Positions 17,908 through 40,325 of a stretch of 64,000 nucleotides of DNA are shown piece by piece. The notes under the pieces were generated by a model that saw only the letters and a list, made by a program, of their open reading frames with translations, was not told the origin of the DNA and searched no databases. Made by a program: the position numbers and the translations under genes. This DNA comes from Lepidurus packardi (Eukaryota; Arthropoda; Branchiopoda; Notostraca; Triopsidae). The stretch lies in NCBI GenBank assembly GCA_023053545.1, contig JAKZAN010000007.1:10168001-10232000 (forward strand), read 5' to 3'. Position 1 is the first letter of the stretch. Every line of letters starts with the position of its first letter.

Positions 17908-18406
17908 ATGGCTAAATTCCAAGTGAGATTCAACATCCAAAGCCAGGCGTTAATTCGCTAATTTTTAACCAATTTACTCTCATCCTTAGGTTTTCGTCGC
18001 CCTTTTGGCCTTTTCCGCCGCCATGGCCGCCCCCGCCGAAGAGGTGGGGCCCTCTGACGACCAGAAGGCCGAAGAAGGCGCAGCGCTGGTTTACTCCGCT
18101 CCTCAATACCACGGATACTACGACAGCAGCCTCGCGTCCCCTTACGCCTACGCTGCTGCCCCTGCCGTCTTGACTGATCACTACGGTTACGCTACCGGCT
18201 CTAACGTAGTGGCCGCTCCTTACGCGTCCGTCCTTGCCGCTCAACCCTACGTCCACGCCGCTCAGCCGTACGTCAAGTACGCTCCCACCGTCAAAGCTTA
18301 CGCCGCACCCGCTGCCTATGCCTACGCTCCGGCTAGTTACGATTACGCCGCCGCAGCAGTCCATCCTACCAGCTACTCCTACTCTAAAATGCACGGCAGC
18401 TGGTAA
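17908..18406 (+). CDS. Small Ala/Tyr-rich cuticle protein, copy 1
   Basis: Structural cuticle protein of about 139 residues. Exon 1 (17908-17922) encodes only MAKFQ. Exon 2 (18000-18406) completes the signal peptide (VFVALLAFSAAMAAPAE) and the mature chain. The chain is made of short Ala/Tyr/Pro/Val segments (YAYAAAPAV, AQPYVHAAQPYVKYAP, AAPAAYAYAPASY) typical of low-complexity arthropod cuticular proteins; it lacks a Rebers-Riddiford chitin-binding motif. It ends HPTSYSYSK..GSW. GC content is clearly higher than in the surroundings. Paralogues lie at 21080, 38996 and 62927. A TATA box and an AATAAAA (about 18511) frame the gene. Confidence 0.88.
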
Positions 18407-20295: not shown

Positions 20296-20347
20296 ATCGC
20301 TTCTTGGCCTTTTGGCTAAGATCAACGTGTAGTATCTGTTCTTATCA
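20296..20347 (+). ncRNA. U2 snRNA 5'-end fragment (pseudogene)
   Basis: About 52 bases match the highly conserved 5' end of U2 snRNA (ATCGCTTCT.GGCCTTTTGG, then CTAAGATCAA and GTGTAGTATCTGTTCTTATC). This includes the branch-site-pairing GTAGTA. There is one substitution (C to T) and one inserted C, and similarity stops abruptly before the Sm-site half. Most likely a truncated retro-copy, not an expressed U2 gene. It starts 15 bases after the YWTD stop codon. Confidence 0.85.
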
Positions 20348-20993
20348 CCTTTTCGATTTCTTTAATGTGTTCTAAGCTTAATTTAAACAAAGATTAGAAG
20401 TCTACCCTAAATTTGAATGAATAGAAATTCAAAATACAATGCAAATGACTAAATTGCTTTAACTTATTCAAAACACGAGATAAAAAGGAATAAATTGGAT
20501 TGCAATAGACATCTAATGGTGTTAGAAGTAACTTCCATGAACGTAAGTTTTGAAGTTATTTTGTTTTGAAAATTTTAAAACATTTGAATATTTTAGAGCA
20601 CTAACTGTACAATATTTACGTAAATTTAAAATAAAAAAAGACTGAAATAATTTCAAATAATGTCATACAATTTGAATTGTTACAATAAACTGTTAATTTA
20701 AAATGTTAAACGTAAAGTTGCGGTACTTTTAGTTTATTTCAAACTCTGTAGTTCTTCGTTCTCTTCTCAGCAGTTTCACTTTGACATTGAATTCTACAGA
20801 CGGATGTGAAGGATAGTTAGCTTAGATCGTGACAAGGAATTTTTTTAGTATTATTGAGAAAAATGAATGTTACGGATACGGTCGAACGACTACACAGCAA
20901 GGGTTCTGGTCAATGGACCCATTCGCGGCAAGGTATACAACACGACTGACAACGCCCCACACCTTCAATGAATTCAAGGCTAAGAAAAATGCC

Positions 20994-21000
20994 TATAAAA
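20994..21000 (+). promoter_or_regulatory. TATA box of cuticle gene 2
   Basis: GCCTATAAAA, same context as in copies 1 and 3 (TAAGAAAAATGCCTATAAAA), 80 bases before the start codon. Confidence 0.7.
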
Positions 21001-21079
21001 AGATCAGAGAACTGTGTTCCAGTCACCAGTCGCTACTCCTAGCTTCCAGCACCAACCAACTCCCGAAATCCACTCGACA

Positions 21080-21579
21080 ATGGCTAAATTCCAAGTGAGA
21101 TTCAAAAACCCAAAGCCAGGCGTTAATTCGAGAATTTTTAACCAATTTACACTCATTCGTAGGTTTTCGTCGCCCTTTTGGCCTTTTCCGCCGCCATGGC
21201 CGCCCCCGCCGAAGAGGTGGCGCCCTCCGACGACCAGAAGACCGAAGAAGGCGCAGCGCTGGTCTACTCCGCTCCTCAATACCACGGATACTACGACAGT
21301 AGCTTGGTGTCCCCCTACGCCTACGCTGCTGCCCCTGCCGTCTTGGCCAATCCTTACGGTTACCCTACCGGCTCTAACGTACTGGCCGCTCCTTACGCGT
21401 CCGTCCTTGCCGCTCAACCCTACGTCCACGCCGCTCAGCCGTACGTCAAGTACGCTCCCAACGTCAAAGCTTACACCGCGCCCGCTGCCTACGCCTACGC
21501 TCCTGCTAGCTATGGTTACGCTCATGCAGCAGTCCATCCTACCAGCTACTCCTACTCTAAGACCTACGGCGGCTGGTAA
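21080..21579 (+). CDS. Small Ala/Tyr-rich cuticle protein, copy 2
   Basis: Exon 1 (21080-21094, MAKFQ) and exon 2 (21163-21579). The signal peptide and Ala/Tyr/Pro repeat architecture match copy 1. It is almost identical to copy 3 (38996-39495): the two differ by Thr/Ala in DDQKxEEG and Pro/Ala in YGYxTG. It ends SYSYSKTYGGW. Promoter, intron and 3' UTR are duplicated with the coding part, so both copies are probably expressed in the same way. AATAAAA lies near 21683. Confidence 0.88.
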
Positions 21580-21849
21580 TAGGTGACTGACGACAAACAT
21601 ACGAACCGCCCCTGATCCTTACATTTAATCGTTATTGTTCAAGTTTGCCTAACTCTCGTCCAAAAAATCTCTGAAAAACCAAATAAAAACTGCAGTATTT
21701 CAGAAACATATACTTCTGTTTTACTTTCACAACTATACATTTCATGACCTACAGGCTTAGAACTATACTTCTGTAGGTGTACGTAATCCTTACATCAGGA
21801 CCTCAAAGTCCCTTCCGTCAAACATTAAAACGTTAACATTGCTTTAGTT

Positions 21850-21985
21850 CTGCACCACGGGCGGAATCGAACGCTCAGAACGCGTTCGTTATAGCCCCGC
21901 CATCGTTGTTCGGGATCACCCCGTTCAGACCGACGGGGGCAAAATGGCCGTTACTTCTTAACCCGTTGCACTATCAACATGGAAC
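21850..21985 (-). repeat. tRNA-like SINE-type element in duplicated block
   Basis: Read on the minus strand it starts TAGTGCAACGGGTTAAGAAG (A-box-like) and ends with CGTTCGATTCCGCCCGTGG (B-box-like), about 110 bases apart. A second copy lies at 39765-39900. The two promoter boxes in order suggest a tRNA-derived element or tRNA pseudogene; no clean cloverleaf forms. Confidence 0.45.
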
Positions 21986-22304
21986 AAACATTACTTTTAG
22001 GTTTGAAACTATAAGGTAAGTTCTTAAAAGCACGGAATTTTTACCTAGCATACTTATGCAGATATACGTCACCGTTCTTGGACTTTCTAATTTCCAGCAG
22101 CTGCACTCAAATTTTCGGATTTTTTTTTTATCTTCCAGCTTGCGTTTCATGAAGCTCAAACTCTGGCCAAACAACAAGCACGCTTGTTGTTAAATGGTGA
22201 TATTTTTTTAAGAATTACGCAGCTTGTCATACTGCAAGGAAGGGAAAAAAACGGGATCGCCCCCTCTCCCCTACTGTACGACAAGCACGCTACCACTTCC
22301 TTTC

Positions 22305-22388
22305 GTCAAAGCTATCGCTGCAGCAGCTATCTAAACTAAGACCCAACTAGTTATGGTTACGTCCCCACGGCAGTTAATGATACCAGCA
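22305..22388 (+). pseudogene. Broken cuticle-protein 3' end, left relic
   Basis: Encodes remnants of the family C-terminus (GTCAAAGCTATCGC..., TAGTTATGGTTACG) but with an in-frame stop (CTATCTAAACT) and truncation at 22388. The equivalent at 40231-40325 is longer and keeps its stop codon. Both derive from an additional, now lost cuticle gene. Confidence 0.7.
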
Positions 22389-22390
22389 TG

Positions 22391-25300
22391 CTTTCTGGAA
22401 GCTTCCTTTAAAGACCAAGATCCACGTTTAAAGGATTTATTTTTGGAGTTTAATACAAAGCAATTAAACAAGTACGAAAACGGATCCCATTTTTCAAAAA
22501 TAAACAGAATCTTTTTCTTAAAATTATGTTGTGACCTTCAAAAGTCAGACCTTCAAATAGAATGTGTGAGAAGTCTTACTGTTTATGCTCACTCTTTCCA
22601 TTGTGGCAATGATTGTCTAGTACAATTGGCAGGCACGTTTGTTCTATAACTATTTTACAAGCCAACCCGAAAGAGCTCAAATAAAATGTAGAACCACGGT
22701 ATACACAGTAGAATAACCAGGGTATCTTCCAATGTAAAGGTTTTGGGCCGACTTTCTTTGAACCAGGGGTGGATTCAGGTAGAAGGCCGAAATATTAAAG
22801 GATATATTCCAAAACCTGCCAGTGCAGTTCAAAAAAGGTAACGACGGCTTGCAAAGTAGGTCGGATCTTACGGGCGTCGAAAACTGCCCAGAGTACCCGA
22901 GAGAAGGGCCACCAGTCCCCCGGTTTGTTAATGTTTTGTTTTTCTTCTCGAACTCTTCCTAGAAAATTAGGAATGCCTACCTTCCGAGGTCACGGGCAAG
23001 TCGAACTCCAGTTGAACTCCATCCTATGATCTATCAACTATCAACTAACATCCTATCAACTATCATCCAATGTTCTTTCGCCGAATTTCTAACGAAAAGG
23101 ACAATTGAGTGTATACCATTTGTATTGCTTTTCAGTGCTCCCCGTGTTAGCGTATTCCGTTCACCTCATACAATGAGCAATTTCGCATAACTAAGACCTA
23201 AATTAAGAACACACATTTAAGACTAGCTTAATAATTAGTAAAAGATGGACAATTAAAACTAAACACTGCAAACACAAGTTGCGTTCCTAGGTTTTACGCA
23301 AAACAAAAGAAAAATGAGCTTTTGGACATAGAGTCTTAGCCCAAGACGCGAATGGGGTTGAGAGCAATGTTGCAGGCGTTGACTCCTCGCTTCAGGTAGA
23401 AATATCCTCCCAAGCCCCATGTCGGTCCGTGCCAGTCGTTGCGAAGAATCCAGACCTTGACGCCACCTAGCGTTCCGTAGCCAACTACTATGACCGGAAG
23501 CATGATTCCGTCAGTCGACTGCAAAACAACATCGTTGGTAAGAAATGAACATTTAGATTTTAGAATATTTTGCACGAGTTTTACCTCGCCATCAAAGGGA
23601 AGAAAGCTGAAACCCGCAACCGAAGTCGGGCACATCTTGTCGCTGTCCATAATCCCAGTCCTGATGGGAAAAGAAAAGACCCAAAGAATCCAAGTTTCCC
23701 TCTCGGTCAACAAATAGCAACTGTTGCAAAAGATGAGCCCCGTATACTTACGAATAACTGCCGAAATCTGTTTCCAATGTTTTCGAATCCAGGTACAAAG
23801 TTGCCAAAATGGGTCCTCTTTGTTTGACTTGCTGCGCCATCTTACTCTCATTGAGCACTCTGATGTTTCGGTAGCCCCTTTTCAACTTGTACGCAACGCC
23901 TACTCTTTCAGCATGGCAAGTGCCTATGGCACTAGTTGGGGAAGGTGGGGTAGCGGTGGGAGTTTGTCTAGCAAAGTTAGGATATTCCTGCAAAGAAAGA
24001 AGAGATTTTTATTAACTCGACACCTTTTATCTCAACATAACTTGTATCACAACATTTAGATTTGCAGTTGCAAATTGCGACTTTTTTTAAAATAAAATGT
24101 CTGAATACTTGCTATGCTGCTACCCGAGATGTTTATAGGAGCACCAGCTAGCTTCATCTGACTAACTGGTAAATATATAACGGTTTACCTTATTATTAAC
24201 CATTCCTCCAATACTACGACGACCAGTGGCAGGAGGAGTAGCAGTAGTAGGAGGAGGAGGAGGAGCAGCGGAATTCTCATCTTCCTACAAATAAAACGTA
24301 CTTCACTTTATGACTTTAACATAGGATTGGCAAGTTTCGAATTCCTTTTTTTGTAAACCCTGAAAGGGGTTTAGAAAAAAAGAGTAATAAATCCTTACCG
24401 TTGCATAGTACGTAGCATTCAGAGCGATACCAGCGTAGATCAGGTAGTCTAACGCATCCGTCACTTTCTTGAAGTTCGGTGTCACGCATGCCACTTGAGC
24501 GTTGGGTAACGCACACTCCAGGACTTGTTCAACACTGGTTCATCCCAATTAAAAGATATAGAAGCCAAGTCAATTTGGTAGTTTTACCTGAAATCGCGAA
24601 GAACTTTTTTCTTGCTTGACATGCAGTCTGTGTATTCGGCCAAAGCGACGGCGGGAAGAGCCCATTGTGTTAAGAAGCAAGTCTCGTCAGACCCAAAGAT
24701 GAATTGTTCGGAAATGGGAGGCATGCATTTCCTGGAGCGGTAATCCACCTAAAAATCCACCTTGTACTTTAGAAACAACTCCACTCATCAACACTCTGCA
24801 AAGTCAAAAGTAGGAGGCCAAAATGCACCTTACCTTGAAAGAATTCCCAGCTCTTTCTTCGCCCGTCTTTATTACATCGTGGTGGTCCTGGCAATCGTAA
24901 AATTTTTAGGAAAAAAGTCCGTTTCATGAAAATTCAATATTTCCATTATCTCATTATTCAGAGTGTTTAGCTCTGGATTTTTTAATCTTTGGTTAGATGG
25001 ACTTGGACGCGTTATAATTTAAACCTTTTTTTAGCCAACTAACAAAAAGGCTTATACACTGTAGCCGCGTGCTCCTTGAATTAGAGTCTCGTTTTCCTTT
25101 TTTAATTATTTACAAGCTATAGAAAATGCATCCAATGTGTTGAAAAGCAAAAGTGATCAAGTTTAAGTTACTATATTGCCTTCTGGCATACAACTACCCC
25201 TAAAACAGACCCTGTTGAAGCAATACCCCATTTTAGTCACTAAATAAGGACTTTTCAAAATAAGTATACAGAATATGGAATATGTTTTTCATAGAATATT

Positions 25301-26678
25301 AAAAATATTAAAAACTTAGGGAATTGGTGCCAACAGTTTACATAGATGTACTGGAGCCTACAATGTATGGCAATTTTGGTGGTGCTTGTCTAGATTAGAC
25401 GTCACGGCGTCATTGTTAACTTTCAAATGGAAACCAAAAAAAAGCTTCGGTGTTCAAGGGAAGAAGGATGGATTTCTTACCTTCTCGAGAGGGGGCAGCT
25501 CCAGCACGGCGGCGGAGGCAACGGTCAGCAAGAGGAAATGTACCAGGCCGGGTACTCGTACATGGAATTCAGCCATCGAAAATCTCGACTGGATGCAAGG
25601 ACTGAAGACTGGATGAAGAACAGTTGAACAGAATAGACAGAGCCAATAAAGCTGTGATAAACTGCCGACTGAACTGATCAGAGCTCGTTTGAGAGACCGA
25701 TACTTTCCCATAGAGATGGGAGTCGACTTATATGGGGGAATTCCCCTCCTTATACAGGTGTCAAACATCCGGTCCTTTGTTGCAACTGTATAGCCCATAT
25801 CGACACGTATATGGAGCCACGTACTTGTTGTTTTCCCCGAACCGTCACGGCCTACAGATCTTATGTAAATGATCTGACGTACTTTGGACTTTTCCCCTAT
25901 TGGTCCACGCTTCTCTGCTTTGTTTTTCTCAGTACAGTATATGCAAGCGTGTGCTGAGAGATCCAAACAGGCGTATCCTGGTATCTGAAATTCAAGTATC
26001 CGTTGATGTGTCACCTCGTTCATTGGTCCATGATTCTTTTTTTATTATTTTATTGATGCGTGAGCTGGGAGGTCCATGTTTCTTTGTTACTATGTAAAAT
26101 TTACTTATTTATTTCAAAAATAAATGCCGAAGGAATCAAGTTTGTATTTCTCAATTTGTTATAATTCCGTTTTCAACGATGTTTCTAGTTAAGTTCATTT
26201 AACAGTCAGATGAATCATTCCGAATTTCAACAGGAAACATTTAGTAAATATCCTCTCTATACTTCACTTTCAAGTATCTGTTTCGCTATTTTAGATAAAA
26301 AAAAATAATTCACATCACATTTCGTTCTGCTTTCGGGCCTAAACGGAGCAGAATAGCTTTTGTTCCGGCCGTGACTTGAATTGAGCTCAAGTGAAATGGG
26401 ATCAAAATGCTATAATTGAAAACAGTGAACATAACGACACACAGTCCAATATTCTTGCTATACACATGGTTTATCTTTGAATTTACCTTGGCAGAAAAGA
26501 AAGTACAAGTTTTAACGATTCTCATCAACGGCAGTTGATGATAGTCGTTATCCTAACCAAAGTTAAGCTTACCTAACCTAATTCATTTCCAATCCCACTA
26601 CCAATTTCCAACTCGAATGACATTGGTTTGTCCTTGTATTCCGGAGAACGTTTTGCAAGAATATGACACAATAGTGTC
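22391..26678 (+). repeat. Large inverted repeat, left arm
   Basis: Reverse-complement partner of 30198-34348. In the core (22563-26408 against 30339-34184) coordinates sum to 56747 at every point checked, so there are no indels. All translated frames on both strands are the same in the two arms, so I saw no substitution. Outside the core the arms are still homologous but diverged: an 8-base insertion and substitutions at 22391-22562, and an insertion/deletion of about 140 bases plus substitutions at 26409-26678. The outermost bases (22391-22430) are the copied 3' end of the sulfotransferase coding sequence. Confidence 0.92.
23336..25576 (-). CDS. Papain-family (C1) homologue lacking catalytic residues, left copy
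   Basis: Mirror image of 31171-33411, with the same exons and protein. Exon positions follow by subtracting from 56747: 25576-25481 (signal peptide), about 24888-24834, 24748-24588, 24533-24399, 24286-24188, 23988-23751, 23661-23584, 23519-23336. See the right copy for domain reading. It is transcribed away from the spacer, divergently from its twin, with TATATAAG-type promoter sequence duplicated as well (about 25727-25734). Arms this similar may be kept identical by gene conversion. Confidence 0.82.
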
Positions 26679-27478
26679 GTTTTTTATCTACGCGTTTTTA
26701 ACCGAAGACCGTGTTCGTTATCCGATCATAAAAAGGCGCCAAAAAAGTGTTCGTAATCCGATCTGTTCCTTAACCGATCACCCACTGTATCAAGATGGCG
26801 GACGTTGCGCTGTCAAGACGGCTGACTTACGTGCCAAATTGCATTTGGCTTTACTTCGACTATTTACTTATGTTTATACTCTATTTTGATTACGTATAAT
26901 ATATAAATCATCTAATTTTCCCTACTTATACCGTATTTATCTTAAATAAGTGAAGGGGTACTACTGTCAGAGATATACATAAGAAAGCATGAAGAACAAA
27001 AGGACGAAATGGCAAATACACTAAGAGAAGTATATGTGTAAGTGCAAATAGGGCTAGAGATCAGTTAAAGTACCGTATCGTGAAACATAATTGCATGTGG
27101 AAAAAGACATTGTTCTATTAAGAAAAACGCATTGTTTCTCTCTTTATCTACTGTGCCCAGGAAAGGGCGTCATTCCGAGGGCGCCATTTTAACTTTCGTT
27201 GGCATTAACTGTCTTCAAGTGCATGAACAAGACTAGAAACAAGACTACGAAGTATACAGAAACCAGAGTATGAATAGAAACAATCGAAAACTTAACAACG
27301 CAAACAAAGGCTAAAGGTCAAGTGAAAAGAAAACAAACTTAAATCAAAATCAACCGGTGTAACTGGACCAGGTCCCAATCAACTTTCACACAGACGCAAC
27401 GATATTCTCTCTTTCTCTGGGAAGTCCTTTGCAGCTTGAATGCAACACTTCTTATGCCTGAATGCGGCTCACTCCCTA
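26679..27478. other. Inverted-repeat spacer, left part, non-coding
   Basis: No gene seen. Around 26700-26797 GTTCGTTATCCGATC and GTTCGTAATCCGATC recur, and the segment ends ACCGATCACCCACTGTA. This resembles the terminus of a Tigger/pogo-type element such as the one at 36.3 kb; only one end is visible. Confidence 0.4.
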
Positions 27479-29423
27479 TTAGTCATTGATATCCAAGCTA
27501 CAAGGTCTTCGGAAGGTTTGTGCCGTCTCCCGAATCCATTTGTTACTTACTGCATATATTAAACAAAACGTACAATAATTCTATTGGAAGATGAGGCATA
27601 TTATGTGTTGATTACCCCATTTAGAACCGTAAACAACTGGACATCCGCCATGCAAGGTCAAAGTGTCAGGCTCTCCGCTCTTTTTCAAATTCCACCAAAA
27701 GGCGGCCGCTCCTTTCACAGGTTTCGTAGCCACTCCTACTTGTGGGAACGCTGTCGCACCTCCCCGAATGACGTCATTCAACTATAAAAGTCATAACTTG
27801 CAATGAAACCTGTATCCCCAAAGATCATCCAAAGATTGGAAAGTGTGTATCCGGTGTTGTGAAACCAAGTATTACGCCCCTATTGTTTAACCCTTGTTAT
27901 GATGCCACTTACGTAAAACATAAAAGTGCCGATACGATCTCCCATCTGAAGCTCTTCATAAGACATACTCTCCACCTAAAATTCGAAGAACCGTTATAGC
28001 CAATACCAACGGTTAAAAAAGAAAGGAAATATTGAAAAAAGCGTTTACCAATTCGGAAGGTTTGTCTTTCATCAAGTAATCGTGATGAGGAGGGTAATAT
28101 CCGGCAATTCCGTACCTCCCAACCTAAAGCACAGTTCACCTTATAGTTATCAATAAATTTCAATATATATTTCAATATATGCTCAATTTTCACCGGCATT
28201 AAATAGAAATACGGACTAGGACGGCCCAGCCAGCATTTCAGCTTAGAAACGTACTTTTCGTCCTAAATATATTTCTTTTTAAATCACCAAATTATTAAAC
28301 TTTTTTTTATACAAGCAGCTGCTCTCCACGACAAAGAGCATTGAAATTGATGACGTCCTCCGTAAAATGCGAAGTTCTACCGAGCTGGTATTTCTTGTTA
28401 TTTTTCAACATCTCGCGCTGTTCTGAAAGGGGAACTTTGTTCAAAGGTTGTGGGAACAGGTCAAGAATTGTACCACTTGCCCGGGCTTGATCATGCTATA
28501 TAATTGTATGCCCATCAGAAGAAATGAATAGGCTTCTGTTTTCATGACGCGATAATTTTACTAAAAGAAAGACTGTATACCAGTTTAATCGCCACTTCTA
28601 GGTACTGCGAAGCCTGATCTTGACCAACAGTTTGATTATTCTCCAATCCGGCCAGTACAACAGTGACTTGAAACCATTCAACTGCCCGAAAGAACTTTTT
28701 CGCAGTGAGACAATGTTTACCCATAAACAAGCAATCTTGCGCTGTCAATTCTACCAATTAATATATTAGTATATTAGTATGAGTATTCATAGTAGCAGTA
28801 GTATTGTAATAAAAGGAAGAGGAGTAGGTAGTAATTTGTTGATCTTACTTGCCAGACCTGGCACTCCCCATACATTTCCGCGAGCTAAATCGAGTATATC
28901 TAGCTCGTAAATATCCTGCAGCCGGATCAAAGCTTTCGCTGCTTCATGCATATCGTTTTCTTCTGGAAATTCCCTCCCGTAGGTAACAACCTTGATCCGG
29001 TATAAAACTTTCGTCAAGTTATCCCGTTTCAGAGCTCCCTCAACATCTGTCCATTCCACTGTCAATCGCCGCATTAACTGGTAGCTATGAATTGGATTGC
29101 CTAAGATCCTCTCCTCGAAATCCCCGTCGTTTTGGATGTTTTCATCCATCAAGGATTGATATTGCTCTAAATAACTGTTGACAAAACGCAAGCAATACAA
29201 ACATCAACACGCTTACAGGGAAACCTGGAATACTTTGAATATCTCACTTCTGTATTGATTGTGGTTTTCGTCCCTCTTGGTTTACAAGCGTTTTCATGAC
29301 GCTGACCATATCCTTTTCCATTTGAAAGATACTTAGCATGTCTTTGGTGCTGTCCACGTCGTCACAACGCACTACTTGTACTAGTACAGCCGTTACTGCG
29401 ATTACGTAGGTTTTCAGCTGCAT
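27479..29423 (-). CDS. Prolyl 4-hydroxylase alpha subunit
   Basis: ER-lumen Fe(II)/2-oxoglutarate dioxygenase subunit that hydroxylates proline in collagen-like proteins. Exons (minus): 29423-29248 (signal peptide), 29174-28849, 28750-28581, 28495-28313, 28262-28140, 28121-28049 (start uncertain), 27975-27913, 27781-27616, 27549-27479. Seen: P4Ha N-terminal domain, the peptide-binding TPR part (TAQDCLFMGKHCL...AVEWFQ), ALCRGEQLL, LKCWLGRPSPYFYLMPVKIE, iron ligands in YYPPHHDY, GDRIGTFMFY, GGATAFPQVG, AAAFWWNL, and the distal His and 2OG Lys in LHGGCPVVYGSKW followed by NKWIRE. Oddity: the roughly 80-90 residues normally between PxKxE and the HxD motif (with RxSKSAWL) are missing. Only 16-18 bases, with intron-like ends, separate exons 5 and 6. 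The gene may therefore be damaged, or sequence may be missing from the assembly. Confidence 0.85.
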
Positions 29424-29501
29424 TTTTAGGATTCCCTATTGGGATAACGAACGCAAAAGTACAGCCTATGTATTAAAATTCTATTTCGTTCAATTGAAGG
29501 C

Positions 29502-29529
29502 CGACATTTGAACGATCGTTCAAATGTCG
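29502..29529. promoter_or_regulatory. Perfect 28-bp palindrome upstream of P4H gene
   Basis: Half-site CGACATTTGAACGA followed directly by its exact reverse complement. It lies 79 bases upstream of the P4H start codon, where a promoter is expected. Candidate dimer-binding operator or cruciform; the factor is unknown. Confidence 0.7.
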
Positions 29530-29851
29530 TGAATTCTCATTTTAAATTCATAGATATATTTATTTCACTATTATTTAATTCATTCGAGTATTCACTACCG
29601 AAAGAATGCAATAAAATAACGTATAAAGTTTGTCAAAATACCTTTAACATGGTAAAAATGGGAATATGAATAAGAGACGATAGGTTTAACACTAAACATA
29701 TTACTGTTTTAAGATTAGAATCATGTTTACCTTGTATTTGAAATCGGATTGTCAGCTAATTTTCGCACTCGGATTCACTCGGTATGCGTTCGACTTCGGA
29801 ATGCTGCCAGAATCAACTGCACGTATTTTCCCTATTCGGAAATATATTCCT

Positions 29852-30126
29852 CTTATAATATCTCATCTTTATTAGAACAACAGCACACCCTCCCCATACA
29901 AGATCCACATACTCTGCCACCAGGTAATGTATTCATGCTTCACAGGTGGTGTCCCAAAACCCAACAGGGAGGTTCCGCCCGCACGCCAGGGAATCCACCC
30001 TCGTAACACTGATGAGGATTCATGCTAAACTTCGGTACGCTAGTTTTCCGTGAAATTGGGCGCTATGATGAACACGAACATATTTGTGTGTCTTCCTAAC
30101 TATGAAACGGAGAAACCCTTGTGTTC
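29852..30126 (+). repeat. Inverted-copy segment (partner at 37610-37950)
   Basis: Shares long stretches with the reverse complement of 37610-37950 (for example ATATCTCATCTTTATTAGAA, AGGTGGTGTCCCAAAACCCA, GTGAAATTGGGCGCTA). The partner has an insertion of about 80 bases. Neither copy shows a protein family I recognise. It probably marks the ends of an old duplicated block. Confidence 0.75.
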
Positions 30127-30129
30127 CAA

Positions 30130-30290
30130 ATAAATGTTTCTTCTATAGATCCAAGTCATGTTTCTGCCTGGCTGCTGCTACGCATAGGACTTCCTCTGAC
30201 ACTAGTGTGTCATATTGTTGCAAAACGTTCTCCGGAATACAAAGACAAACCAATGTCATTCGAGTTGGAAATTGGTAGTTGGATTGGAAA
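30130..30290 (+). pseudogene. Sulfotransferase fragment
   Basis: Translates to DPSHVSAWLLLRIGLPLT, close to DPSNVTAWLLRRVGLPLT in the intact sulfotransferase at 34308-35615, then degenerates. No start, PAPS motifs or C-terminus. The right part overlaps the diverged inner flank of the inverted repeat, and the left arm keeps the matching piece near 26590-26678. Confidence 0.75.
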
Positions 30291-31012
30291 TGAATTAGGT
30301 TAGGTTAGCTTAGCTTAGTTAAGGTTAGCAGTATGCGGATTTTGATCCCATTTCACTTGAGCTCAATTCAAGTCACGGCCGGAACAAAAGCTATTCTGCT
30401 CCGTTTAGGCCCGAAAGCAGAACGAAATGTGATGTGAATTATTTTTTTTTATCTAAAATAGCGAAACAGATACTTGAAAGTGAAGTATAGAGAGGATATT
30501 TACTAAATGTTTCCTGTTGAAATTCGGAATGATTCATCTGACTGTTAAATGAACTTAACTAGAAACATCGTTGAAAACGGAATTATAACAAATTGAGAAA
30601 TACAAACTTGATTCCTTCGGCATTTATTTTTGAAATAAATAAGTAAATTTTACATAGTAACAAAGAAACATGGACCTCCCAGCTCACGCATCAATAAAAT
30701 AATAAAAAAAGAATCATGGACCAATGAACGAGGTGACACATCAACGGATACTTGAATTTCAGATACCAGGATACGCCTGTTTGGATCTCTCAGCACACGC
30801 TTGCATATACTGTACTGAGAAAAACAAAGCAGAGAAGCGTGGACCAATAGGGGAAAAGTCCAAAGTACGTCAGATCATTTACATAAGATCTGTAGGCCGT
30901 GACGGTTCGGGGAAAACAACAAGTACGTGGCTCCATATACGTGTCGATATGGGCTATACAGTTGCAACAAAGGACCGGATGTTTGACACCTGTATAAGGA
31001 GGGGAATTCCCC

Positions 31013-31020
31013 CATATAAG
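31013..31020 (+). promoter_or_regulatory. TATA-like box of right C1 gene
   Basis: CCATATAAG about 150 bases upstream of the start codon; the mirror copy is at 25727-25734. Confidence 0.5.
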
Positions 31021-31170
31021 TCGACTCCCATCTCTATGGGAAAGTATCGGTCTCTCAAACGAGCTCTGATCAGTTCAGTCGGCAGTTTATCACAGCTTTA
31101 TTGGCTCTGTCTATTCTGTTCAACTGTTCTTCATCCAGTCTTCAGTCCTTGCATCCAGTCGAGATTTTCG

Positions 31171-33411
31171 ATGGCTGAATTCCATGTACGAGTACCCGGC
31201 CTGGTACATTTCCTCTTGCTGACCGTTGCCTCCGCCGCCGTGCTGGAGCTGCCCCCTCTCGAGAAGGTAAGAAATCCATCCTTCTTCCCTTGAACACCGA
31301 AGCTTTTTTTTGGTTTCCATTTGAAAGTTAACAATGACGCCGTGACGTCTAATCTAGACAAGCACCACCAAAATTGCCATACATTGTAGGCTCCAGTACA
31401 TCTATGTAAACTGTTGGCACCAATTCCCTAAGTTTTTAATATTTTTAATATTCTATGAAAAACATATTCCATATTCTGTATACTTATTTTGAAAAGTCCT
31501 TATTTAGTGACTAAAATGGGGTATTGCTTCAACAGGGTCTGTTTTAGGGGTAGTTGTATGCCAGAAGGCAATATAGTAACTTAAACTTGATCACTTTTGC
31601 TTTTCAACACATTGGATGCATTTTCTATAGCTTGTAAATAATTAAAAAAGGAAAACGAGACTCTAATTCAAGGAGCACGCGGCTACAGTGTATAAGCCTT
31701 TTTGTTAGTTGGCTAAAAAAAGGTTTAAATTATAACGCGTCCAAGTCCATCTAACCAAAGATTAAAAAATCCAGAGCTAAACACTCTGAATAATGAGATA
31801 ATGGAAATATTGAATTTTCATGAAACGGACTTTTTTCCTAAAAATTTTACGATTGCCAGGACCACCACGATGTAATAAAGACGGGCGAAGAAAGAGCTGG
31901 GAATTCTTTCAAGGTAAGGTGCATTTTGGCCTCCTACTTTTGACTTTGCAGAGTGTTGATGAGTGGAGTTGTTTCTAAAGTACAAGGTGGATTTTTAGGT
32001 GGATTACCGCTCCAGGAAATGCATGCCTCCCATTTCCGAACAATTCATCTTTGGGTCTGACGAGACTTGCTTCTTAACACAATGGGCTCTTCCCGCCGTC
32101 GCTTTGGCCGAATACACAGACTGCATGTCAAGCAAGAAAAAAGTTCTTCGCGATTTCAGGTAAAACTACCAAATTGACTTGGCTTCTATATCTTTTAATT
32201 GGGATGAACCAGTGTTGAACAAGTCCTGGAGTGTGCGTTACCCAACGCTCAAGTGGCATGCGTGACACCGAACTTCAAGAAAGTGACGGATGCGTTAGAC
32301 TACCTGATCTACGCTGGTATCGCTCTGAATGCTACGTACTATGCAACGGTAAGGATTTATTACTCTTTTTTTCTAAACCCCTTTCAGGGTTTACAAAAAA
32401 AGGAATTCGAAACTTGCCAATCCTATGTTAAAGTCATAAAGTGAAGTACGTTTTATTTGTAGGAAGATGAGAATTCCGCTGCTCCTCCTCCTCCTCCTAC
32501 TACTGCTACTCCTCCTGCCACTGGTCGTCGTAGTATTGGAGGAATGGTTAATAATAAGGTAAACCGTTATATATTTACCAGTTAGTCAGATGAAGCTAGC
32601 TGGTGCTCCTATAAACATCTCGGGTAGCAGCATAGCAAGTATTCAGACATTTTATTTTAAAAAAAGTCGCAATTTGCAACTGCAAATCTAAATGTTGTGA
32701 TACAAGTTATGTTGAGATAAAAGGTGTCGAGTTAATAAAAATCTCTTCTTTCTTTGCAGGAATATCCTAACTTTGCTAGACAAACTCCCACCGCTACCCC
32801 ACCTTCCCCAACTAGTGCCATAGGCACTTGCCATGCTGAAAGAGTAGGCGTTGCGTACAAGTTGAAAAGGGGCTACCGAAACATCAGAGTGCTCAATGAG
32901 AGTAAGATGGCGCAGCAAGTCAAACAAAGAGGACCCATTTTGGCAACTTTGTACCTGGATTCGAAAACATTGGAAACAGATTTCGGCAGTTATTCGTAAG
33001 TATACGGGGCTCATCTTTTGCAACAGTTGCTATTTGTTGACCGAGAGGGAAACTTGGATTCTTTGGGTCTTTTCTTTTCCCATCAGGACTGGGATTATGG
33101 ACAGCGACAAGATGTGCCCGACTTCGGTTGCGGGTTTCAGCTTTCTTCCCTTTGATGGCGAGGTAAAACTCGTGCAAAATATTCTAAAATCTAAATGTTC
33201 ATTTCTTACCAACGATGTTGTTTTGCAGTCGACTGACGGAATCATGCTTCCGGTCATAGTAGTTGGCTACGGAACGCTAGGTGGCGTCAAGGTCTGGATT
33301 CTTCGCAACGACTGGCACGGACCGACATGGGGCTTGGGAGGATATTTCTACCTGAAGCGAGGAGTCAACGCCTGCAACATTGCTCTCAACCCCATTCGCG
33401 TCTTGGGCTAA
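31171..33411 (+). CDS. Papain-family (C1) homologue lacking catalytic residues, right copy
   Basis: Secreted C1-fold protein. Exons 31171-31266 (signal peptide), about 31860-31913, 32000-32159, 32214-32348, 32461-32559, 32759-32996, 33087-33163, 33228-33411. C1 landmarks: VDYRSRKCMPPISEQ at the start of the mature domain, GPILATLYLDS, VIVVGYG, VWILRNDWHGPTWGLGGYFYLKRG and NACNIA. By spacing from the oxyanion Gln, the usual GSCW nucleophile position reads GSDE, and the His before VVGYG (normally HAVxVVGYG) reads LPVIVVGYG; the Asn in RNDW remains. A Pro/Thr-rich insert (SAAPPPPPTTATPPATGRR) splits the domain. No recognisable inhibitor prodomain. So it is probably a catalytically dead C1 protein with a binding role. 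The upstream in-frame extension is ignored because the ATG at 31171 begins the signal peptide. Confidence 0.82.
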
Positions 33412-34307
33412 GACTCTATGTCCAAAAGCTCATTTTTCTTTTGTTTTGCGTAAAACCTAGGAACGCAACTTGTGTTTGCAGTGTTTAGTTTTAATTGTCC
33501 ATCTTTTACTAATTATTAAGCTAGTCTTAAATGTGTGTTCTTAATTTAGGTCTTAGTTATGCGAAATTGCTCATTGTATGAGGTGAACGGAATACGCTAA
33601 CACGGGGAGCACTGAAAAGCAATACAAATGGTATACACTCAATTGTCCTTTTCGTTAGAAATTCGGCGAAAGAACATTGGATGATAGTTGATAGGATGTT
33701 AGTTGATAGTTGATAGATCATAGGATGGAGTTCAACTGGAGTTCGACTTGCCCGTGACCTCGGAAGGTAGGCATTCCTAATTTTCTAGGAAGAGTTCGAG
33801 AAGAAAAACAAAACATTAACAAACCGGGGGACTGGTGGCCCTTCTCTCGGGTACTCTGGGCAGTTTTCGACGCCCGTAAGATCCGACCTACTTTGCAAGC
33901 CGTCGTTACCTTTTTTGAACTGCACTGGCAGGTTTTGGAATATATCCTTTAATATTTCGGCCTTCTACCTGAATCCACCCCTGGTTCAAAGAAAGTCGGC
34001 CCAAAACCTTTACATTGGAAGATACCCTGGTTATTCTACTGTGTATACCGTGGTTCTACATTTTATTTGAGCTCTTTCGGGTTGGCTTGTAAAATAGTTA
34101 TAGAACAAACGTGCCTGCCAATTGTACTAGACAATCATTGCCACAATGGAAAGAGTGAGCATAAACAGTAAGACTTCTCACACATTCTTTTTGAAGGTCT
34201 GACTTCACAACATGATTTTAAGAAAAAGATTCTGTTTATTTTTGAAAAAATGGGATCCGTTTTCGTACTTGTTTAATTGCTTTGTATTAAACTTCAAAAA
34301 TAAATCC

Positions 34308-35615
34308 TTAAACATGGATCTTGGTCTTTAAAGGAAGCTTCCAGAAAGGCTTCACAGAATTGGAGACATTCAAAGAGGCGCGGTTTGGTACCGGGATGTA
34401 CCCGTAATTGGCTAAAACATCAGCGCAAGTGTTTTGTATAGATTCAATTTCTTCCCAGGGCAGAGTGCTTTTCCAGAGCGACACTCTGCTGCCCAATTTG
34501 CGTGTAGTGGTCTGGCGCTCGTTTCCGTCGGATGTTGTATGCGTATCGAGGTACGTCCTCACAGAGGGCGTTAATGGGAGTCCGACACGTCGCAGCAACC
34601 AGGCGGTAACATTACTTGGATCCACGGCCAGGTCTTCATAGCGTAGTACCGTGAAAGTATCAGGGAATTCTTCCTGTGCTTCCAACGCACTTTCGTAGTT
34701 AACCCGTAAGAATTCGCAAAGCACCTCTTGTTTATCGCAGTTCTTAGTGCAAAACTTAGCCTTATGGCGAGACGCCATAGAAGCGCGCGGGTCTCTTACA
34801 AGCAGAACCACGTGAAAGTTGGGTACCGGCTGGCGCAAAAGTGGCAAAACCGGGCGCAAAGGCATGTGAACTAGCTTGGTGATTTGTACCGGAAAATGAC
34901 GGCAGGCAAAGGACAAACGTTCGTCTTGAGGACACATATCTTTGTAGATTTTGGAACAGATATTGTACAAAATTTGATTAGACAGCCATATCCTTACGAG
35001 AGGAAAGCCGTGTAGACCCATTTGTTCATGAAAGGACAAGTAATCGCAGTTTAGGACCCTGGCAATTTCATCAACGTGCACCTTAGCTAACGTATCATTG
35101 TCGGTAGGTAAGTTTTGGAATCCCATGTAGCTTAATGGCTCGAACTGGTACAAAGCACCCGGTACTTGGCTCAAAAGTTCGGCGGTAAATGATGAGCCAC
35201 TCCGGTAGGTAGAAACGATCAAAATGCGCTTAGCCACGCCCTCTGTTGATGGCAAAGTCATCCCATGGTCGATCAGTATTTTTCGTTGCTCTCTTGTCGC
35301 GTTTATTACCATTTCATTGAACCAGGAATTATTTTGCCCTATTTCAAAGATACCTTGATCAGATGGACGAACGGTACCTGCTCCTGTCGTTCCTGGCGAT
35401 TCATTTGAAAAACTTCCCACTGACGAAGTTGGTTTAGACTTTGAGAGGTTATTCGACTCGTCGTTGAAAGGTGGAGAAAGATGATGGAAGTAGACGACCA
35501 GTACAACCGTAGAGATGCAGCAAAATTCCAGGACATTTCTTCGACGTCGAAAGAATGTCCTTAGTCGCATTACGTTTGCTTTAAAGCAACTAATCGCGAG
35601 TGAATTACGATTCAA
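34308..35615 (-). CDS. Carbohydrate (GlcNAc/Gal-6-O type) sulfotransferase
   Basis: Golgi type II membrane enzyme moving sulfate from PAPS to a sugar 6-OH on glycans. 435 residues, single exon. Short cytosolic N-terminus with arginines (RLRTFFRRRR), signal anchor at about 28-46 (LEFCCISTVVLVVYF), a Ser/Thr-rich stem, then the 5'-phosphosulfate loop TYRSGSSFTAELL, QFEPLSY, and the 3'-phosphate motif VRDPRASMASR. ELLxxxPGALYxFEP and the conserved YEDLAVDPSNVTAWLL are as in the CHST1/3/5 group. The exact acceptor sugar cannot be told. The last 14 or so codons are copied in the left inverted-repeat arm (22391-22430), and an older fragment lies at 30130-30290. Confidence 0.88.
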   Translation of the reverse strand: MNRNSLAISCFKANVMRLRTFFRRRRNVLEFCCISTVVLVVYFHHLSPPFNDESNNLSKSKPTSSVGSFSNESPGTTGAGTVRPSDQGIFEIGQNNSWFNEMVINATREQRKILIDHGMTLPSTEGVAKRILIVSTYRSGSSFTAELLSQVPGALYQFEPLSYMGFQNLPTDNDTLAKVHVDEIARVLNCDYLSFHEQMGLHGFPLVRIWLSNQILYNICSKIYKDMCPQDERLSFACRHFPVQITKLVHMPLRPVLPLLRQPVPNFHVVLLVRDPRASMASRHKAKFCTKNCDKQEVLCEFLRVNYESALEAQEEFPDTFTVLRYEDLAVDPSNVTAWLLRRVGLPLTPSVRTYLDTHTTSDGNERQTTTRKLGSRVSLWKSTLPWEEIESIQNTCADVLANYGYIPVPNRASLNVSNSVKPFWKLPLKTKIHV

Positions 35616-36258
35616 ATTGTCTAAAATTTTTCTCCCAATCTCGATATAATTGCCAACTGGAATGCTTTTAAAATGGGTTCTGTTGTTACGTAATTTGCAC
35701 TGGATTTAAACACAGGTTTAGCAGCCGTTACACTTGGTTGTTTGTCTAGCGGACACCGCCACGTATCTGAATCCACGACAGCTCTTTCCCTTGCTATACC
35801 CAATATGCTAATCAAGTTCTATTAGCACATGCGTCAGGGTTGTCAGGCCTCACGCTATCCTGCTGAGCACAATGAAAGCGAGAAATCTATTCTTTTACTA
35901 AAAGAAAGGATTTTCCTATCCAGTTCTGTATAAATTATTCGTCTGGTTGTTTTATATGACTATACATAATTACAAGCGTATGAGTGATTAGGAAACATCT
36001 GGGCGTTTTCTTTTTCGAAACGTTCATTGGTCCACGTTTCCCGAGTTTGTGATTCGCTGCTATGCTTCATTCCATGAGCAAATCACATTCCGGCCCGTTC
36101 TTACTTGTTTTGAAAAGTTAAGCAAGAAAGCTTACTCAAACGATTGAAATGAATAAAAAAAGAATGTAATTGCTTTATAAAAATGCGAAATATTGTGTTT
36201 AAATATTTTCTATTTGTATAGAATATACACATGTATAATAATTGTTTCTATTTATAGA
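35616..36258. other. Intergenic, nothing recognised
   Basis: 5' flank of the sulfotransferase. No TATA box, repeat or exon that I can support. Confidence 0.45.
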
Positions 36259-38151: not shown

Positions 38152-38909
38152 GTATAAGAAAAGTTTACCTTATTTGCAAAGTTTACCTTATCTCGAAAAT
38201 CAGAAATATTACATAGTCAGAAATAGTCGATAATGTGCCCGTTAGATGGCACAGTTTTGACTAAAAACAGACCAACAACAACGACTTTGCAATTTCTTGA
38301 ACGTGTTCTAAGTTCAGTTTGGAACAAGGTTTAATACTGGAAAAGATTCGACTTAACGACAAAAAATACACTGAAATTGCTACAACTAATTAGAAACTGG
38401 AGATGAAAACAACAAAGGATTACAAACGCCATCTGGTGCAGTTAAAAAGTAACTTCCATGAGCGTTAGTCTTCAAGTTGTTTAGTTTTCAATTTTGGTGA
38501 ATATTTTGAAAGCAATCTGTAACGATTTAATTAAATAAAAATGTTTCAATAAAATGTAACCAATTCCATACAATTTAAAGAGTTAAAATAACACGTTAAA
38601 ATAAAATGTTAATTTAAAATGTTAAACGAAAAGTTACGGTACTTTTAGTCTATTTCAAACTCTGTAGTTCTTCGTTCTCTTCTCAGCAGTTTCACTTTGA
38701 CATTGAATTCTACAGACGGATGTGAAGGACAGTTAGCTTAGATCGTGACAAGGAAGTTCTTTTTTTATTATTAAGAAAAAAATTGTTACGGATACGGTCG
38801 AACGACTACACAGTAAGGGTTCTGGTCAATGGACCCATTCGCGGCAAGGTATACAACACGACTGACAACGCCCCACACCTTCAATGAATTCAAGGCTAAG
38901 AAAAATGCC

Positions 38910-38916
38910 TATAAAA
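38910..38916 (+). promoter_or_regulatory. TATA box of cuticle gene 3
   Basis: TGCCTATAAAA, 80 bases before the start codon, in duplicated promoter context. Confidence 0.7.
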
Positions 38917-38995
38917 AGATCAGAGAACTGTGTTCCAGTCACCAGTCGCTACTCCTAGCTTCCAGCACCAACCAACTCCCGAAATCCACTCGACA

Positions 38996-39495
38996 ATGGC
39001 TAAATTCCAAGTGAGATTCAAAAACCCAACGCCAGGCGTTAACTCGCTAATTTTTAACCAATTTAATCTCATTCGTAGGTTTTCGTCGCCCTTTTGGCCT
39101 TTTCCGCCGCCATGGCCGCCCCCGCCGAAGAGGTGGCGCCCTCCGACGACCAGAAGGCCGAAGAAGGCGCAGCGCTGGTCTACTCCGCTCCTCAATACCA
39201 CGGATACTACGACAGTAGCTTGGTGTCCCCCTACGCCTACGCTGCTGCCCCTGCCGTCTTGGCCAATCCCTACGGTTACGCTACCGGTTCTAACGTACTG
39301 GCCGCTCCTTACGCGTCCGTCCTTGCCGCTCAACCCTACGTCCACGCCGCTCAGCCGTACGTCAAGTACGCTCCCAACGTCAAAGCTTACACCGCGCCCG
39401 CTGCCTACGCCTACGCTCCGGCTAGCTATGGTTACGCTCATGCAGCAGTCCATCCTACCAGCTACTCCTACTCCAAGACCTACGGCGGCTGGTAA
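38996..39495 (+). CDS. Small Ala/Tyr-rich cuticle protein, copy 3
   Basis: Exon 1 (38996-39010, MAKFQ) and exon 2 (39079-39495). Signal peptide VFVALLAFSAAMAAPAE; mature chain of YAYAAAPAV, QPYVHAAQPYVKYAP and AYAPASYGYAH segments; ends KTYGGW. Nearly identical to copy 2 across promoter, intron, coding and 3' regions, so the duplication is recent or homogenised. Expected to be a structural cuticle component secreted by epidermis. Confidence 0.88.
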
Positions 39496-39764
39496 TAGGT
39501 GACTGACGACAAACATACGAATCGCCCCTGATCCTTACATTTAATCGTTATTGTTCAAGTTTGCCTAACTCTCGTCCAAAAATCTCTGAAAAACCAAATA
39601 AAAACTGCAGTATTTCAGAAACATATACTTCTGTTTTACTTTCACAACTATACATTTCATGGCCTATAGGCTTAGAACTATACTTCTGTAGGTGTACGTA
39701 ATCCTTTTCTCAGGACCTCAAAGGCCCTTCCGTCAAACATTAAAACATTAACATTGCTTTAGTT

Positions 39765-39900
39765 CTGCACCACGGACGGAACCGAACGCTGAGAACGCGT
39801 TCGGTATAGCCCCGCCATCGTTATTCAGGATCACCCCGTTCAGTCCGACAGGGGCAAAATGGCGGTTACTTCTTAACCCGTTGCACTAACAACATGGAAC
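39765..39900 (-). repeat. tRNA-like SINE-type element, second copy
   Basis: Duplicate of 21850-21985, with substitutions in both boxes (for example CGTTCGGTTCCGTCCGTGG). Confidence 0.45.
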
Positions 39901-40230
39901 AAACACTAGTTTTAGGTTTGAAACTATAGTGTAAGTTCTTAAAAACACGAAATTTTTAACTAGCATACTTATGCAGATATACGTCACCGACCTTAGGTTG
40001 TCTAATTTCCAGCAGCGGCACTAAAATTTTCGGATTTTTTTGCTCTTCCAGCTTGCGTTTCATGAAGCTCAAACTTTGGCCAAACAACAAGCACGCTTCG
40101 GCCATCTAGTGGTTATTTTTTTAAAGAATTACGTGTTTTGCCATACAGCAAGGAAGTGAAAAATAAAACGGGATCGCCCCCCTCTCCCCCTACTGTACGA
40201 CAAGCACACTAACACCTCCTATCGTCAAAG

Positions 40231-40325
40231 CTATTGCTGCAGCAGCTATCTGGGCCTATGCCCCAACTAGTTATGGTTACGCCCACCCCGCAGTTCATGA
40301 TACCAGCTACGCGTACTATGGATAA
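40231..40325 (+). pseudogene. Cuticle-protein 3' end, right relic
   Basis: Reads VKAIAAAAIWAYAPTSYGYA and ends HDTSYAYYG with a stop at 40323-40325, clearly the C-terminus of a cuticle paralogue. An AATAAAAAT follows near 40439. No upstream coding part was found in frame, so I call it a truncated gene. Confidence 0.7.

Follow-up and report, generated by a model that had tools for sequence, protein, structure and literature searches.

Ectopic gene conversion has been reported for the palindromic Hsp70Aa/Hsp70Ab and Amy gene pairs of Drosophila, where the similarity between linked, inverted paralogues greatly exceeds expectation (PMC3924832). Hsp16-48 of C. elegans and other Caenorhabditis paralogues are likewise described as spaced inverted copies with converted introns (PMC3966223). 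The great-ape GSTT2 tandem inverted duplication is reported to be homogenised by conversion, reaching 99.4% in humans (PMC3375281), and palindromes found on Y chromosomes and in parthenogenetic animals are described as having reverse-oriented arms that permit conversion (PMC7953838). In Daphnia magna, the conversion reported was measured at heterozygous sites (PMC7820357). The two loci described here, A and B, resemble these inverted pairs in those respects, and we consider it probable that they are old members of a gene family in which recent interlocus gene conversion made at least 3.85 kb identical.

The window that we analysed is a stretch of 64,000 nucleotides (C6:10168001-10232000) of the 108.6-Mb assembly of Lepidurus packardi, which comprises 344 contigs. 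Comparing the window with itself by BLAST and base by base, we recovered two inverted arms on one chromosome, with A and B in opposite orientation and 3.9 kb between them. The maximal exact run spans 3850 bases, such that the core of arm A (22559..26408, minus strand) is the reverse complement of the core of arm B (30339..34188, plus strand), with 0/3850 substitutions and no indels. The initial annotation of this DNA had described an identical core whose paired coordinates sum to 56747; the sum is correct and the equality is exact, and the true run is four bases longer than was given there. The same annotation had placed a prolyl 4-hydroxylase gene in the spacer, where we indeed found exons of the alpha subunit (28542..29203, minus strand; P4Ha_N 83.9 bits, E 1.2e-23), with a TPR_P4H match of 19.7 bits, under its cut-off of 27. 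Further copies of this gene in the same cluster are 92-94% alike. Outside the arms, a segment that ends 3 bases before arm A (20451..22387, plus strand) has a direct copy (90.6%) at 38374..40307 on the plus strand. We also observed a match to U2 spliceosomal RNA at 20296-20410 (62.9 bits), in which model positions 1-192 are covered within only 115 bases, so it is perhaps a shortened pseudogene. An open frame of 138 codons, rich in Ala, Tyr and Pro, occurs in three copies (17990-18406, 21163-21579 and 39079-39495); these look cuticle-protein-like by eye, and the copy at 17990-18406, the one searched, had no match in Pfam.

With a portion of the core, the inner flank and the adjacent sulfotransferase as queries against the genome, we found the pseudo-protease unit at six further places on the same contig, P1 to P6, 0.2-0.5 Mb away (regions examined C6:9650001-9720000 and 9960001-9990000). 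P1 and P2 lie on either side of a 100-N gap, are 99.6% alike and probably represent one stretch that was assembled twice, and the 5.1 kb direct repeat of 99.6% that flanks this gap (C6:9669110-9679525) probably represents unmerged contig ends. P6 is broken. We excluded P2 and P6 from the divergence, dN/dS and exact-run comparisons. In P1 the outer portion of the unit (22391-23083) is missing. The core of B differs from P1, P3, P4 and P5 by 8.4-9.0% over 2934 common sites, and these four differ among themselves by 5.2-7.1%. The sulfotransferase gene adjoining arm B (34308..35705, minus strand) also adjoins P3, P4, P5 and P6, with one in-frame TGA in the copy next to P3, and near P1 there is a diverged relative, 72% alike.

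P3 and P4 are an adjacent inverted pair in the sister cluster, 94.5% alike over 5467 aligned bases and 90.4% alike over a further 2222. Since P3 and P4 are inverted yet not homogenised, inverted position by itself does not explain the identity of A and B. Conversion may nevertheless have touched other members of the family. In permutations of 10 pairs, the observed shared run of variable sites was reached in 0/2000 for P1-P4 and P4-P5 and in 1/2000 for B-P5, and in 6 pairs over 22391-26100 it was reached in 0/2000 for B-P4, B-P5 and P4-P5, although such long shared runs may partly reflect poor alignment of low-complexity stretches, for example 24035-24136. These longer-than-expected runs suggest conversion elsewhere in the family.

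Both cores contain the same gene, at 23336..25576 on the minus strand in arm A and at 31171..33411 on the plus strand in arm B, with 8 exons and the same coding sequence. We built the gene model by eye from the paralogue alignment and the splice sites; the exons in arm B are 31171-31266, 31860-31913, 31999-32159, 32213-32348, 32463-32558, 32760-32995, 33087-33162 and 33229-33411. The introns are GT-AG, there are 346 codons including the stop, and the frames of A and B are open. The core also takes in 832 bases ahead of the start codon and 777 bases beyond the stop codon. Pfam finds Peptidase_C1 at 78.1 bits (cut-off 20.7) over residues 51-340, so the protein belongs to the papain family by descent, and the nearest solved structures by sequence are cathepsins H and K. 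As in the papain family, the domain is recognised along its length and the region of the catalytic Asn is kept. It departs from that family in carrying Gln at the position of the catalytic Cys (QWAL where CWAF is usual, a position that we set by eye from the WAF-like motif) and Leu at that of the catalytic His (MLPV in place of NHAV, aligned to cathepsin H), and because the Pfam search returned no domain besides Peptidase_C1, the protein is without the I29 prodomain. With both Cys and His absent, it is predicted not to be an active cysteine protease, and both copies indeed look like pseudo-protease genes. A hydrophobic start, judged by eye, suggests secretion, and both genes are presumably expressed. 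We found no literature on the locus or its protein family among papers judged by title or the start of the abstract.

The same altered Cys and His motifs occur in P1, P3, P4 and P5, and P3 and P5 have uninterrupted reading frames. In P1 (C6:9667294-9672127) and P4 (9690527-9694573), extra tandem copies of a short proline-rich exon break the naive exon model. Among the copies, dN/dS is 0.40-0.85 (309 codons, proline-rich exon excluded), which points to weak constraint. Together with the open frames in both arms, these values are what could be said in favour of purifying selection as the force that keeps A and B the same, and we regard this explanation as having almost no chance of being right: the introns and intergenic flanking sequence in the core are identical too, which refutes selection for the non-coding part, and paralogues with open frames are about 8% apart.

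Papain-like genes were also seen on small contigs between C122 and C300, where an unbroken match covers the greater part of the profile. In-frame TAA and TAG occur in several of them, and they could be ciliate-like contaminants reading these codons as Gln.

The flanks of the core are homologous between the arms and diverged. On the outer side, the flank of arm A (22391..22558, minus strand) holds the 3' side of the sulfotransferase gene and its last codons, to which the gene is reduced there, and the flank of arm B (34189..34348, plus strand) continues into the complete gene; they differ at 4 of 159 sites and by indels of 1, 1 and 8 bases. On the inner side, the flank of arm A (26409..26678, minus strand) is contiguous with the core and is also present in P1 and, as far as 26658, in P5. 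In the inner flank of arm B (30198..30338, plus strand), roughly 138 bases present in P1 and P5 are missing. Between A at 26549-26678 and B at 30327-30198, 10 of 130 sites differ, and this stretch is separated from the core by 140 bases in A and 11 in B. The substitutions, the 8-base indel and the length step of about 140 bases that had been noted beforehand were thus all found. Pooled, the flanks have 14/289 differences and the core 0/3850 (Fisher p 5e-17), and single flanks against the core are also significant (p 2.4e-6 and 1e-15). The alignment therefore has a step in divergence at the core edges, and even divergence along the arms is rejected (p = 5e-17). Identity by chance can likewise be ruled out by the Fisher test and by the longest exact run per pair in the 10 pairs among A, P1, P3, P4 and P5, which is 73-209 bases.

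Judged against P1 and P5, the inner length step arose through two deletions: A alone has lost 9 bases at 26408/26409, which B, P1 and P5 keep, and B alone has lost the roughly 138 bases at its inner edge. At the outer edge, among the copies that align, A alone carries the 8-base insertion and 3 of the 4 substitutions, and the fourth substitution is shared with P3. This pattern fits a decaying sulfotransferase tail in A that the last tract missed. As to direction, this comparison of flanks with paralogues gives mixed clues, since private outer-edge changes lie in A and the larger inner deletion lies in B.

About 26495-26700 is part of a dispersed element, with at least 48 matches among the 40 of 340 candidates that were scored, and among the matches listed, those of at least 100 bases outside the protease family are 76-84% alike. 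We ruled out that the inner flank is an unrelated dispersed repeat inserted twice: the bases leading from the core to the element are common to A, P1 and P5, and B has the first of them, so the copies represent the same insertion.

The closest counterpart of the inner flank of A is that of P1, at a distance of half a megabase; the two differ at 3 of 109 sites, compared with 8 of 110 for A and B. The core of A, in contrast, is equal to B and 8.5% from P1, and towards its inner end it resembles P1 (22/408 differences) just a little more than P5 (32/407). In the inner-flank tree, A joins P1 (support 69/71), and joining A with B is not rejected (AU p 0.074, 130 sites); in the outer-flank tree, A and B are weakly joined (69/67). 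Given the weakness of these trees, the strong evidence for conversion is the step in divergence and not topology. Of the two parts of the earlier interpretation, recent homogenisation of the core within older homologous sequence is supported by the identical core, the diverged flanks and the long exact run. An older inverted duplication that gave rise to A and B receives no such support, as the two are part of a multicopy family and the inner flank of A is nearest to P1.

Core identity with sharp ends would also be produced by a single recent inverted duplication of 3.85-4.0 kb, inserted into a site that held remnants of the unit and no core, so that nothing was overwritten. The genome does have other very recent copies on contig C1, namely the inverted repeat and the trypsin-like loci described below. 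Such an insertion requires that A had previously lost the core alone and retained both homologous edges, and the core and inner flank are contiguous in P1; we give this explanation little credence. Because the inner flank of A is contiguous with the core in P1, and in P5 to 26658, it is very probable that a core was already present at the A site.

Gene conversion is the explanation we favour. The starting state would be two old members, in opposite orientation, of a multicopy family whose unit is the pseudo-protease gene plus, in most copies, the neighbouring sulfotransferase. One copy would then have recently replaced at least 3.85 kb of the other, that is the whole gene and both sides, through interlocus gene conversion in one long tract or several merged ones. 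The identity would end on the inner side at the length differences and on the outer side among the substitutions and the 8-base indel. A and B form an identity tract inside homologous diverged sequence, and since the core is identical, the flanks are diverged and the fuller paralogues are diverged, the two loci are old and were homogenised recently. We infer conversion rather than another kind of replacement, and with it the repair mechanism. Against conversion, the trees of the short flanks are compatible with A and B as sisters, the outer flank is only 2.5% diverged, the tract of at least 3850 bases is long against the C. elegans range, and there is a false-looking duplication at a gap on the same contig.

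That duplication also bears on the quality of the assembly. Real differences between the arms, amounting to a few per cent at most, may have been erased if the consensus, gap-filling or polishing step wrote one version into both places. The 100-N gap at C6:9674277-9674376, with 5.1 kb repeated on either side, the absence of any indel across the 3850 core bases, and a second exact inverted repeat on C1 are compatible with this. However, the window and the 10 kb beyond each of its ends are free of N, neither arm abuts a gap or contig end, each arm has different neighbours, and there is a spacer of its own between the arms. Artefacts from folded reads usually have no unique spacer. Moreover, family copies that are 5-9% diverged were kept separate in the assembly. 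We therefore consider an artefact unlikely, if still worth bearing in mind.

The second repeat, C1:12110065-12115045 versus 12122677-12127657, has exact inverted arms of 4981 bases and a spacer of 7631 bases. Unlike at A and B, its flanks are without similarity, and without diverged homologous flanks it has the pattern of a simple duplication. A papain-like gene whose Cys motif is intact lies in its arms, and by eye the spacer has retrotransposon-like open frames. Exact inverted repeats are thus not unique in this genome, whether real or technical. We also noted a direct repeat of a trypsin-like locus at C1:12224027-12236971, its two copies scoring equally and separated by 11.9 kb; they are either another recent duplication or an artefact. 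On C3, at 8.69 Mb, paired globin domains occur in three neighbouring places. Daphnia haemoglobins are two-domain, like these.

The 0/3850 differences bound the divergence of the cores at about 0.08% (rule of three, calculated by hand). For D. obtusa, a rate of 2.45e-9 substitutions per site per generation is reported (PMC12926508), and only if this rate fits our organism would the last homogenisation, again by hand, be less than about 160,000 generations ago. Dating A and B by their 0% divergence would make them brand new, when their edges and relatives reveal an older family; duplicates that look young may be old. The roughly seven places of this family, with A and B homogenised and P3 and P4 not, offer a natural comparison for the timing of long conversion tracts. 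A more speculative idea, which we think improbable, is that A and B are kept identical repeatedly by long-tract conversion of whole transcription units, favoured by the usefulness of a double dose of a catalytically dead, probably secreted protein with a papain fold. If this were true, the genome would permanently harbour exact inverted repeats of 4-5 kb, the one on C1 being the second.

A and B also differ from the described systems. The Drosophila Hsp70 and Amy pairs are reported from comparison between species and shared polymorphism (PMC3924832), and A and B are known from one genome and its diverged edges. Tracts reported in C. elegans are 12-2958 bases long, most of them 50-200 (PMC3966223), compared with at least 3850 here. 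GSTT2 is described as a 29-kb duplication of an enzyme gene, sampled in several individuals and species (PMC3375281), and relative to the palindromes described for Y chromosomes and parthenogenetic animals (PMC7953838), A and B are a short pair of single genes. Conversion in inverted repeats is already known from Drosophila Hsp70 and nematode hsp-16, and A and B are one more case, in which the mechanism is ordinary and the tract, though rather long, is clearly visible.
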